A stretch of 13,167 nucleotides of DNA. It comes from Desulfonatronospira sp. Lineage in GTDB: Bacteria > Desulfobacterota > Desulfovibrionia > Desulfovibrionales > Desulfonatronovibrionaceae. The notes under the pieces are model-generated. The model was given only the letters and a program-made list of their open reading frames with translations, did no database searches and was not told where the DNA came from. Every line of letters starts with the position of its first letter. Position 1 is the stretch's first letter. Position numbers and translations under genes: made by a program. The DNA lies in assembly GCA_003554505.1 (NCBI GenBank), contig PWGS01000103.1:1-13167 (forward strand). Reading direction: 5' to 3'. Below are positions 2,376 to 13,167 of the stretch, one piece after another.

Positions 2376-3272
2376 TCAGCTTGCCCTGTCCACGATATAC
2401 TGGGCCAGCATGTACAGAAACTCTTTGCTCGGACCCTGGTAATCATTGAGGCAGGCCTTTGCCTCGTCAGCTGCTGCCTGGGCCAGGTCCCGGCTCTTTT
2501 CCAGCCCCAGGAACCTGGGATATGTGGATTTGTTCACTGATTCGTCGCTTCCCACGGGTTTGCCCAGGGATATTTCGTCACCTGTCACATCCAGGATATC
2601 ATCGACAATCTGGAAGGCCAGGCCGATGTTGCTGCCGAAACTGGAAGCATTCCGGGTATCCCTCCCCTTTTCAGGATCCGAACCGGCAAGTATTGCTCCG
2701 CTGCAGCATGCAGCCCTCAAGAGGGCCCCGGTCTTCATGGCGTGCATGCCTTTGAGATCCTGAAGCTCCATACTTTCCCGGCCTGTGGCGCGCATATCCA
2801 TGCACTGCCCCCCTACCATGCCCGACGGTCCGGCTGCTTCGGCAACATGACCAACGGCAGCCAGAACATTTTTTGCCGGAAAAGGGGCTTTAAGCATCAT
2901 GGTGAAAGCCTGGGTCAAAAGGCCGTCTCCGGCCAGTATGGCCAGGGCCTCTCCGAATTTTTTGTGGCTGGTGGGCTTGCCCCGCCTCAAGTCATCATTG
3001 TCCATTGCCGGGAGGTCATCGTGTACAAGGGAGTATGTATGGATCATTTCCAGACCGGATGCAAAGGGCAGGATATCTTTTGCGGATGCCCCGGTCATCT
3101 CCCCCCAGGCCAGGCAGAGTACAGGTCTGACTCTTTTCCCTCCGGCCATGAGACTGTATTCCATGGCTTCCTGCAGTTCACCGGGAACCCCTTCAAGCTG
3201 CAGGCAGCTTTCCAGATACTTTTCCACCTCGCTTGCCCTGGCAGCCAGTTCCTGCCTGAACTCCTTACTCAT
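2376..3272 (-). CDS. ispA: Short-chain trans-prenyl diphosphate synthase (farnesyl/geranylgeranyl type)
   Basis: The enzyme condenses isopentenyl diphosphate with allylic diphosphates to give C15 (or C20) prenyl diphosphate for quinone side chains, undecaprenyl carriers and similar products. Both Asp-rich motifs are intact: first DDLPAMD at residues 85-91, followed by DDLRRGKPTSH, and second FQIVDDILD with D224-D228. The ATG at 3272 is preferred over the longer frame opening at 3296: it gives 298 residues, the family's usual length, and an N-terminus of the expected MSKEFRQEL type. It also has AGAGG 5 nt upstream and overlaps the end of xseB in an ATGAGTAA arrangement that suggests translational coupling. 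Chain-length specificity (C15 or C20) cannot be settled by eye. The common partner dxs does not follow; nth does. Confidence 0.95.
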   Translation of the reverse strand: MSKEFRQELAARASEVEKYLESCLQLEGVPGELQEAMEYSLMAGGKRVRPVLCLAWGEMTGASAKDILPFASGLEMIHTYSLVHDDLPAMDNDDLRRGKPTSHKKFGEALAILAGDGLLTQAFTMMLKAPFPAKNVLAAVGHVAEAAGPSGMVGGQCMDMRATGRESMELQDLKGMHAMKTGALLRAACCSGAILAGSDPEKGRDTRNASSFGSNIGLAFQIVDDILDVTGDEISLGKPVGSDESVNKSTYPRFLGLEKSRDLAQAAADEAKACLNDYQGPSKEFLYMLAQYIVDRAS

Positions 3273-3483
3273 CATCCCCTCTTGGTGCTTGGACATCCTC
3301 GGCCAGAACAGTGATCTCGTGCCTTGCTTTTTCCAGTTGTTCCCGGCAGGCCCTGGTGATTTCCATACCCTCTTTGAAAAGCTGCACGCCTTTTTCCAGG
3401 GGCAGTTCCTTCTTCTCCAGCTCCTGCACGATTTTTTGCAGTCTCTGTACTTTCTTGTCGAAATCTCCCTGTTTAGCGGGCAT
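3265..3483 (-). CDS. xseB: Exonuclease VII small subunit
   Basis: XseB is the small helical subunit that decorates XseA in exonuclease VII, which degrades single-stranded DNA to oligonucleotides. The 72-residue product has the family pattern F-D-x-x-V-x-x-L-x-x-I-V-x-x-L-E near the N-terminus, then L-P-L-E-x-G-V-x-L-F-x-E-G and a second helix. The ribosome site AAAGGA (3491-3496) is 7 nt from the ATG. Its first base is also the last base of the inverted-repeat element's terminal repeat. The gene overlaps ispA by 8 bp. xseA is not in the window. Confidence 0.94.
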   Translation of the reverse strand: MPAKQGDFDKKVQRLQKIVQELEKKELPLEKGVQLFKEGMEITRACREQLEKARHEITVLAEDVQAPRGDDE

Positions 3484-3495
3484 ATAAGTATCCTT

Positions 3496-3691
3496 TAATT
3501 AGTTTCCATCCGGAAACGGTTCTTTTTCCTTTTGGCGGCGTCAATCTGCACAATTATTCGTCACCGTATTAAGATACGCCTCCTCATAATTGCTTGATTT
3601 CCTTGCCAAAAGAAAAAATTTCTCGTTTCCGGAAAGAAAACCAATAGCTTCGACATCCGGAAAGAAAGACTTTCCGGATGGAAACTAATTA
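3496..3691 (-). repeat. 196-bp non-coding element with 21-bp terminal inverted repeats, copy 1 (complete)
   Basis: The ends, 3496-3516 and 3671-3691, are perfect 21-bp inverted repeats starting TAATTAGTTTCCATCC. Read on the minus strand, the element matches 12999-13167 at about 93% (12 differences in 169 bp, no gaps). Its internal complementary arms are: a hairpin at 3654-3680 (11-bp stem, 5-nt loop); long arms 3523-3536 with 3605-3618; arms CAATTAT 3551-3557 with ATAATTG 3586-3592; and a small CGTAT/ATACG hairpin at 3565-3578. CCGGAAA/TTTCCGG recurs at both ends and twice inside. There is no meaningful open reading frame. The termini allow a TA target duplication, as in IS630/Tc1-type MITEs, but that assignment is inference. 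A structured RNA is the alternative. Confidence 0.85.
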
Positions 3692-3867
3692 TGGCTGCCG
3701 GGATGGAAACTATTTACGAAAATATTGTCAAGTTTTTTCTTCAGGGTTAACAACATGTTAAGATAATTTGGTTTTTTCTGACGCCATATTTTTCGTGACT
3801 ATTTTTCAAACCCTGCACTTGGCAGTCATCCGGGACGAAACCAGAGTTTCGCAGCAGTACCGGACAC
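3692..3867. other. Non-coding spacer between the element and the larC stop
   Basis: I see no gene in this AT-rich stretch. On the minus strand it holds a TTGACA hexamer (3726-3731), but no good -10 box lies at the right distance, so a promoter for xseB is not supported beyond that. At 3701-3712 there is a 12-bp match to the element's terminal repeat, listed separately. No clear intrinsic terminator for larC was found. Confidence 0.5.
3701..3712. repeat. Solo partial copy of the element's terminal repeat
   Basis: GGATGGAAACTA repeats 12 bp of the right terminal repeat (3671-3691) in the same orientation, 9 bp beyond the end of copy 1. It may be a remnant of an older or nested insertion, or chance in AT-rich DNA. 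It is short, so confidence is limited. Confidence 0.4.
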
Positions 3868-12122: not shown

Positions 12123-12983
12123 TCAGGCCCGCAACAGCCACAGGGCGGCCAGGGCCAGACCCAGGCCCAGCAGACGGGAAGCATCCAGGCGTTCTTTGAA
12201 AAATATAACCGCCAGCAGTACCGGCACCAGAAAATGCATGCCGTTGACCACAGCTACAATGGAAAGAGGCCCCAAAGCCAGGGCCTTTAAAAAAAGATAA
12301 AAACCGGCCAGATTGAGCAGGCCCATGACAAGTCCGATTCCAAGGGCCAGCCTGCCCTGTCCCTGATCCTGTGTGCCGGCGAACATCCTCGGGGACAGGG
12401 CAAGAGTGAACAGGGGGGAAAAAATATAGGACAGAGCTATGAAAGCCCATATATCGGTATGATCTGCTGCAAATTTACAGGTGATGGCGGACAGGCCTCC
12501 GGCCAGCATGGCCAGAAAGACCAGCAAAAGCCCTCTTCCCCGTAGCCCACCCTGAAAATCACTGCTTCTATCCCGCCCCAGGATCCACACAGTGGCCAGT
12601 GAAAACAACAGCCCAAGCACCTGCTGCAGGGCCAGGCTCTCCTGCAGGAAAAACACTGCGAAAAGGACCACCAGGACAATGTTCATGCGGATCAAGGGAT
12701 AGGCCACAGCTGCGGGAACATGTTTCAAAGCCTGGATATGGCACAGGGTGGCGCTGGCAAAGGTCAGGCTGTTGGCCAGGGAGATGAATATAAGAAATCC
12801 CGGAGCACTGATCTCCGGCTGTCTGGTTAAAGTTACAGCACCGGCCAGAACGGCCACAGTAGCCATAAACACGAATGTCGTCCTGAACGTACTGCAGTTC
12901 CTGGCAGCAGCCACTTTATACAAAAAGCGCTGTCCGCCCAGGAGTACAAGAGCTGACAGGGAGTAGGCATACCAGAGTTCCAT
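12123..12983 (-). CDS. EamA/DMT-superfamily ten-helix transporter
   Basis: The 286-residue product consists of ten hydrophobic segments in two EamA-type repeats (about 1-137 and 150-286), with no soluble domain. Each repeat ends in the family pattern: F-L-Q-E-S-L-A-L-Q-Q-V-L-G-L-L at about 111-125 and F-F-K-E-R-L-D-A-S-R-L-L-G at about 259-271. DMT transporters usually export small metabolites such as amino acids or nucleotide-related compounds; the substrate is unknown. The ATG at 12983 has only a weak ribosome site (AAAGAT, 8 nt upstream). The terminal repeat of an inverted-repeat element begins 15 bp upstream of the start, so that element or what lies beyond it must supply the promoter. 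It is followed by the M48 protease gene. Confidence 0.9.
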   Translation of the reverse strand: MELWYAYSLSALVLLGGQRFLYKVAAARNCSTFRTTFVFMATVAVLAGAVTLTRQPEISAPGFLIFISLANSLTFASATLCHIQALKHVPAAVAYPLIRMNIVLVVLFAVFFLQESLALQQVLGLLFSLATVWILGRDRSSDFQGGLRGRGLLLVFLAMLAGGLSAITCKFAADHTDIWAFIALSYIFSPLFTLALSPRMFAGTQDQGQGRLALGIGLVMGLLNLAGFYLFLKALALGPLSIVAVVNGMHFLVPVLLAVIFFKERLDASRLLGLGLALAALWLLRA

Positions 12984-12998
12984 AACAGTTTATCTTTA

Positions 12999-13167
12999 TA
13001 ATTAGTTTCCATCCGGAAATTTCTTATTTCCGGATGCTGAAACTGATGGTTTTCTTTCCGGAAACGAGGAGTTTTTTCTTTTGGCAAGGAAATCAAGTAA
13101 TTATGAGGAGGCGTATCTTAATACGGTGACGAATAATTGTGCAGATTGACGCCGCCAAAAGGAAAAA
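12999..13167 (+). repeat. Second copy of the inverted-repeat element (cut by the window edge)
   Basis: This is the inverted copy of 3523-3691, gapless over 169 bp with 12 differences. Nine of those differences fall within the hairpin and linker at 13020-13047; the remaining 120 bp differ at only three places. The terminal repeat (12999-13019) is identical to that of copy 1. The hairpin at 13010-13036 keeps its 11-bp stem through a paired change relative to copy 1. About 27 bp, including the other terminal repeat, should lie beyond the window. The element starts 15 bp upstream of the EamA gene. No coding potential is seen. Confidence 0.83.

Follow-up and report, generated by a model that had tools for sequence, protein, structure and literature searches.

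A MITE with ISNCY-type ends that probably carries a conserved structured RNA in the Desulfobacterota

Two copies of a short inverted-repeat element in the window

The window analyzed here, which is the whole 13,167-nucleotide stretch of contig PWGS01000103.1 from Desulfonatronospira sp., contains two copies of a short repeat, each lying next to the 5' end of a gene. Copy 1 lies at a distance of 18 bp from the start codon of the gene xseB, which encodes the small subunit of exodeoxyribonuclease VII (3265..3483, minus strand; TIGR01280 above cutoff), and copy 2 is found 21 bp from the start codon of a gene for an EamA-like transporter (12123..12983, minus strand; PF00892 above cutoff). The two copies have opposite orientations relative to these genes. 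An earlier note, made from the sequence alone, had described the element as lacking an ORF, and the ORF list of the window indeed contains none of 60 aa or more inside it; one 87-aa frame overlaps copy 2.

The same note had described copy 1 as a 196-bp element (3496..3691) with perfect 21-bp terminal inverted repeats. We placed the boundaries by aligning 39 copies together with their flanks and by the pairing of ends across loci. The aligned copies gave a mobile element proper of 184 bp (3502..3685), for which the minus strand is the strand with the conserved fold, and positions 1-184 of the covariance model R1 matched this same interval on the minus strand with an E value of 1.1e-53. The element is flanked by the same 6-mer, TAATTA, on its left (3496..3501) and right (3686..3691) sides, a target-site duplication that agrees with the consensus TAATTA/TAnnTA of 56 copies. 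The perfect 21-bp repeats are present (3496-3516 and 3671-3691), but the true terminal repeat is 15 bp long, and it appears longer because the TAATTA duplication is palindromic and extends it. The 15-bp repeat occupies 3502..3516 on the left (GTTTCCATCCGGAAA, plus strand), where its sequence is that also seen at the ends of an ISNCY element in genome G005, and 3671..3685 on the right (minus strand, from the sequence). The left end reads GTTTTC in most copies of the element but GTTTCC in copy 1 of the window, which is why the repeats of the latter are perfect.

On the folding strand, the structure line of R1 places a 5' hairpin at model positions 1-39 (3647..3685, minus strand), with the right terminal repeat inside it. 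The conserved core, a long hairpin, was matched by a second model, R2, at 3511..3630 on the minus strand (E 8.5e-28), and the bases of its internal loops (GGCAAGGAA..., TTGACGC) are invariant or nearly so.

The second copy (13005..13167, folding strand plus) matched R1 positions 1-163 and lacks its 3' end, because the window is the entire contig (C218). It has the TAATTA duplication on one side (12999..13004), the other side being past the contig end, and its site was found half-empty in genome G001, which has a single TAATTA and no element. The inverted second copy of about 93% identity that had been reported earlier was recovered as a 170-nt match (93%; 3523-3692 versus 12998-13167). Adjoining copy 1, the sequence GGATGGAAAC followed by TATTTA (3701..3716; 94% repeat-family match) resembles the leftover end of an older element and is a possible remnant of the right end of another element.

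Target-site duplications, empty sites and copy number

The earlier note had suggested that the flanks be examined for target duplications and empty sites, and both were found. Exact duplications of 6-7 bp, with the consensus TAATTA, were present in 56 of 74 loosely paired copies of approximately full length, where 3.2 were expected by chance when the right flanks were dealt out anew. The 56 copies with duplications are on average 92% alike. The remaining 18, which lack an exact duplication, comprise among others false pairs produced by the loose search for ends and copies whose duplications differ by one mismatch. When 57 copies were compared with the available loci, two orthologous spanning matches were obtained, one of which was exact: locus L145 has a single TATCTA, and L035, which holds the G005 copy, has the element between two TATCTA sequences. 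The second case (L167/L134) is less clean, and no clean empty-site comparison was obtained for window copy 1.

The expectation of a mobile unit with many copies in the genome proved correct. In its own genome, an assembly of 1.64 Mb in 306 contigs that is 82.6% complete, the element was found in at least 40 separate places, many of them partial (52 matches were merged); this count is a lower bound, with 40 of 75 first-look candidates scored. Sixteen of the 40 places start or end within 10 bases of a contig end, and therefore the repeat breaks the assembly. Matches to the element were found in 21 of 61 genomes, its own included, three of which had only 1-2 weak matches, and G005 has 17 places that cover at least 139 of the 196 bases. 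Among the best 80 of 88 database stretches, all but three came from Desulfonatronospira or Desulfonatronovibrio, the exceptions being one Desulfonatronum, one Desulfohalobiaceae MAG and one Pacearchaeota MAG. The copy binned as Pacearchaeota (L184) lies in what is probably a mis-binned bacterial contig. No match to the window element was found in plasmid and phage collections, and a search of viral contigs with two patterns gave 0 matches.

We also analyzed the position of the copies relative to genes. According to a simple ORF caller, 40 of 44 long-flanked copies lie outside predicted ORFs, versus 27% expected at random positions. The ISNCY-ended copies showed no consistent orientation rule relative to genes; a repetition of this orientation analysis is not relied on, as its simple ORF caller made errors at GC-rich loci and conflicted with the dap genes identified there.

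Several copies and their surroundings show additional features. Loci L008, L042, L065, L132 and L179 contain a long form of the MITE, in which two unrelated hairpin inserts (CCACGCG..CGCGTGG and CCTGTC..) occupy the same position of the core, as if the core has a variable extension stem. A tandem array with 171-bp spacing at L078:6270-6950 (G005:C1:1156302-1156852) contains one end of the long MITE form together with the hairpin-like sequence CTCCTTAGCCAAGGAGGGG. A second dispersed repeat is common to L082, L081, L084, L175 and L193; it contains or adjoins the MITE copies of L175 and L084, and GGGGACTGTCCC is found near the copy of L082.

Insertion sequences of the ISNCY family with the same ends

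A transposase gene bounded by the same terminal repeats, which the earlier note had proposed to look for, was found in genomes G005, G010 and G615. A search of G005 with the terminal repeat revealed two facing ends 1658 bp apart, with a 474-aa ORF between them and TATGCA on both sides. The encoded protein scored 492 bits against NCBIfam NF033593 (ISNCY family), for which the cutoff is 325, and it also matched Pfam DDE_Tnp_1 and DUF772; NF033593 was scored on the G005 copy, and the other partner copies were matched to G005 by sequence only. The partner copy of G010 is 85% identical; it is flanked by a 6-bp duplication (GAATTA), and one of its ends deviates by a single mismatch. G615, which belongs to another family, has three IS copies with 44-45% protein identity and with these ends at no more than one mismatch. 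One of them has TAAATA on both flanks and a structured element approximately 60 bp away. No direct duplication flanks the other two, and internal stops occur in two of the three copies. Autonomous partner ISs of approximately 1.66-1.7 kb, with 15-bp ends and a 6-bp duplication, are therefore present in the genus, in the family and in another family. Matching transposases are rare, being found in 3 of 61 relatives (one as a fragment) and in 4 of 30 distant genomes (two weak or partial), and none was found in the 82.6%-complete own genome. The suggestion that the element is a MITE thus proved correct, given its many copies, its target duplications, the empty site and an autonomous partner IS bounded by the same terminal repeats.

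The window MITE and three of the partner ISs have nothing significant in common beyond 15-16 bp at the ends; for a distant MITE, the match to one IS end extends to as much as 30 bp. Because only the ends are common to the IS and the MITE, the latter is no simple deletion derivative of that IS. We take the partner IS to belong to ISDol1, a group with a duplication of 6-7 bp. ISDol1 is named as an ISNCY subfamily in a passage of PMC8147514.

The segment G005:C1:62615-65797 (L077) was considered as a parent from which the MITE would have arisen by deletion, and was rejected, as it consists of a MITE copy into which an unrelated IS has inserted. The IS inside it encodes an 851-aa DDE transposase (Pfam DDE_Tnp_1) and has the ends TCAGAC/GTCTGA and a 3-4-bp junction repeat. 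It reached no NCBIfam cutoff and is possibly an unclassified IS.

A conserved fold with a preferred strand

Comparison of the folding energy with shuffled sequences gave z = -9.9 for the minus strand and z = -7.4 for the plus strand, with 0 of 200 shuffles reaching the observed value in each case. An alignment of 34 diverse copies that were found by sequence alone, and which is therefore free of the selection bias of a structure model, showed two-sided changes in 11 of 50 pairs (shuffle mean 2.1; 0 of 500 shuffles as high).

The distant core sequences were retrieved by means of a structure-based model, and such a search is biased towards pairing sequences. For the core alignment we started from 70 sources, of which 20 had no core or a weak one, as judged partly by the complementarity of one stem. 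Two duplicates were further dropped, and from the resulting 48 we removed two false hits, two sequences with large inserts and two near-duplicates, which left 42 sequences. In this 42-sequence alignment, two-sided changes were found in 24 of 35 pairs and in 296 cells, versus 95 cells when shuffled, and 95.3% of the cells were paired, versus 41-51% for slid partners. After removal of the helix that the selection favours, 16 of 21 pairs still showed two-sided changes (209 versus 68 cells), and 93.3% of the cells were paired, versus 32-46%. When 15 of the left-out sources were scanned again with the core model, 14 scored 77.8-99.4 bits and one (L025) scored 37 bits.

On the modelled strand, G·U combinations numbered 146 versus 13 for A·C (49 versus 25 in a narrower alignment). 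This excess of G·U over A·C indicates that the modelled strand matters, which is the minus strand for copy 1 and the plus strand for copy 2. Distant members keep a core of similar length, with loop bases that are invariant or nearly so. Judged by eye, the internal loop GAAATC/GATTGA can be read as containing tandem G·A pairs, in the manner of a kink-turn.

Mobile and settled forms across the phylum

In the order, 59 of 297 genomes had matches to R1 at E values up to 1e-4; for the phylum the figure was 45 of 395 genomes, and most genomes had none. R2, which describes the core of approximately 124 nt, matched in 90 of the 395 genomes and in 56 of 246 genera of the phylum. A distant set was assembled from 40 fetched members and 20 places from one family of the same order, f5, which is probably Desulfovibrionaceae. 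When up to 3 mismatches were allowed, an ISNCY-type end was recognized on one or both sides in 32 of 33 distant full-length members, which were drawn from the best-scoring ones. Exact 6-bp duplications were found in 11 of the 33 (shuffle mean 1.3), and some of the others have 7-bp or one-mismatch duplications.

The ends of the distant members were also examined for pairing. Where the 5' end is unlike the 3' end, it has a partner 20-34 nt on, inside the 5' hairpin (GTGTCC/GGACAC, GTGCCC/GGGCAC and GTGTTC/GAACAC). A hexamer that pairs fully with the 5' end was found at 15-85 nt in 25 of 33 members, versus 16.1 when shuffled (maximum 23 in 500 shuffles), and 10 of 33 show full pairing between the 5' end and the terminal hexamer at the 3' end. 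Members with the common end GTTTCC mostly have its partner 47-75 nt in, outside the 5' hairpin.

A different form of the core was observed in f5. None of its 26 copies has an ISNCY-type end within 80 nt of the core, and there are five sets of copies that each occupy one locus common to two or three genomes. In 22 of these 26 copies (L297-L321, L323), a stop codon that closes an open frame of at least 80 codons running towards the core, mostly TAG, lies no more than 10 nt from the 3' end of the core; this was also true for 16 of 20 after removal of shared-locus copies. The first base of the element is G, and a TAG stop is therefore created when it inserts behind a TA. The stop-codon hypothesis was rejected for window-type copies with duplications, for which the feature was found on 8 of 108 sides versus 297 of 1693 random TA sites, i.e., without an excess. 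Distant full-length copies have it on 14 of 65 sides, 12 of 33 at the 3' side versus 2 of 32 at the 5' side (Fisher p 0.005). The stop feature belongs to part of the family. The f5 core had no match in a plasmid or phage collection, and the distant core gave a single match, weak and partial, to a plasmid of Geobacter, without confirmation by the core model.

Known RNA families, the Geobacter short RNAs and the dap operon

No Rfam 15 family reached its gathering score over the element. In two of five scans there were matches over it, all well short of that score (E 0.76 and worse), and the other three gave none. Beside an element copy, at L020:1391-1488, there are matches to Acido-Lenti-1 RNA (Rfam RF01687), one above and one below the gathering score. 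The apical part of the core seems to us to bear a vague resemblance to the Toxic small RNAs and to sRNA-Xcc1. Kinship with them was not supported, as neither was among the Rfam matches. As presented in passages of the respective papers, the Toxic small RNAs (RF02278; PMC4603805, PMC7011215) and sRNA-Xcc1 (PMC2996969) are likewise structured small RNAs with a function that is not known, and the former have several copies per genome; the reported lengths are 57-92 nt and 88 nt, respectively, versus approximately 124 nt for the core.

In the genome paper of Geobacter metallireducens, 24 predicted short RNA elements with the central palindrome GRCGTAGCGCTGCTACGCC are described, one of which separates dapAB from dapL; the legend of that family names only Geobacter species and Desulfotalea psychrophila, and the passages concerned make no link to a MITE or to ISNCY (PMC2700814). 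We searched the 395 genomes for GRCGTAGCGCTGCTACGCC, allowing one mismatch, and found it in 15 of them, with 1-33 matches each; the reversed control was found in 9 genomes, with at most 2 matches. Matches to the core model were present in 13 of the 15 genomes bearing GRCGTAGCGCTGCTACGCC, and in 20 of 30 fetched loci this palindrome fell inside a core-model match. In the window copy, the apical stem has diverged and lacks it. In genomes G514 and G554, a core in sense orientation separates dapB from dapL, and in G552 the core is found twice, in the dapA/dapB and dapB/dapL gaps, also in sense orientation; the dap genes were identified with NCBIfam, except dapB of G554 and a partial dapL of G552, which were identified by eye.

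The presence of GRCGTAGCGCTGCTACGCC within the core match and the same dapB-dapL place in the same operon suggest that the core of the element and the Geobacter Gmet_R1005 group are very probably the same family, noticed in 2009. The earlier statement that the element is not a described family therefore holds with respect to Rfam at threshold, but very probably not with respect to the 24 predicted Geobacter RNAs. In open-licence PMC full text, GRCGTAGCGCTGCTACGCC and Gmet_R1005 were found only in PMC2700814, and among open-licence PMC titles and abstracts on MITEs together with ISNCY or Desulfo names, none describes the element.

Discussion

We propose, with a probability of roughly 0.78, that the element is a MITE moved in trans by an ISNCY-family DDE transposase and that it carries a structured RNA, which it would thereby spread. 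The ISNCY transposase would recognize the common 15-bp ends (GTTTYCATCCGGAAA) and would insert the element into targets resembling TAnnTA, of which 6 bp would be duplicated; the ends, the duplications and the empty site all point to such movement. Read from the minus strand of the window copy, the predicted RNA would begin with a 5' hairpin containing one of the terminal repeats, followed by a long hairpin with conserved purine-rich internal loops, the outer stem of which would include the other terminal repeat. Compensatory changes have preserved the fold of the core across many of the phylum's families, also where ISNCY ends are not seen or where the core is at the same operon in several genomes. 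The interior may thus act as a structured RNA, either as a cis element of a host transcript or as a small RNA, and the transposon would be the means by which this RNA spreads. With respect to the earlier suggestion of a repeated structured RNA, a structured interior with strong covariation was found in many families, whereas transcription and an RNA function are predicted from sequence.

A broader version of this proposal is more tentative, and we put it at somewhat less than even odds. The whole MITE may be one structured RNA unit, a mobile non-coding RNA of an undescribed class that is kept across the phylum and seeds itself into transcripts via a borrowed ISNCY transposase, and some copies, i.e., those of the dap operon and of the 3' ends of f5 genes, may have become fixed as host regulatory parts. 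MITE interiors are usually viewed as passenger sequence. Here the interior is not filler but a structured element matched in 90 of 395 genomes, without an Rfam family at threshold, and the same core is found both in an intact-ended mobile element and settled in one biosynthetic operon in several genomes. If correct, the proposal would provide a direct and testable case of a transposon spreading regulatory RNA.

Covariation would equally be expected from a folded single strand of DNA, and the fold could serve transposition or replication as a structure of single-stranded DNA, instead of being an RNA. The arrangement of the ends would suit such a role, as the 5' hairpin contains the element's own end, divergent 5' ends have a matching partner 20-34 nt on, a pairing hexamer occurs in 25 of 33 distant members versus 16.1 when shuffled, and 10 of 33 pair with the 3' terminal hexamer; furthermore, G·T wobbles form in DNA too. 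However, the partner of GTTTCC lies mostly at 47-75 nt, outside the 5' hairpin, and the f5 and dap-operon copies keep the core without visible mobility. We know of no DDE elements with target duplications that need folded single strands, which also speaks against this explanation, and we consider it unlikely.

It seems similarly improbable that the element is a plain MITE with a neutral interior, the palindrome of which is kept matched by template switching or by gene conversion from arm to arm. MITEs are commonly palindromic. The mean likeness of 92% among the 56 copies with duplications is what recent spread would give, and a stem-loop is called typical of MITEs in a passage of PMC11448079. 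Repair between the arms should perfect the palindrome, yet the asymmetric loops hold bases that are invariant or nearly so across families. In addition, the 146 G·U versus 13 A·C combinations favour one strand, and the core persists without ISNCY-type ends in all 26 f5 copies, some of them at loci common to more than one genome.

Two other explanations have next to no probability left. A MITE of the IS630/Tc1 type inserted at TA, as the earlier note had suggested and as the prominence of TA in the target consensus TAATTA might indicate, is refuted by the 6-bp, TAnnTA-like duplication and by the ISNCY-family transposase that the elements with matching ends encode. Likewise, an origin of both window copies by one segmental duplication, which their location within 10 kb of each other might suggest, is refuted by their differing flanks, by the separate duplications of most full copies and by the exact empty site of another copy.

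The MITE with a structured interior that we propose can be compared with several known systems. From general knowledge, and not from a direct comparison, REP/BIME sequences are dispersed intergenic hairpins as well, and the f5 copies at gene ends recall them; the element differs from them in being longer, in its conserved internal loops and in having a mobile form with ISNCY ends. A 187-nt MITE of Microcystis that is attributed to an ISL3-type transposase is described in passages of PMC11448079 as short, without a transposase gene, present in high copy number and forming a mainly intergenic hairpin, with the ends and duplication length of a resident IS. The present element differs from it in its ISNCY partner and in its interior, which is structured and conserved across many families of the phylum. 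With the ISNCY ISs themselves, the element has the 15-bp ends and the 6-bp duplication in common; it differs from them in being without a transposase and in matching them only at the ends.
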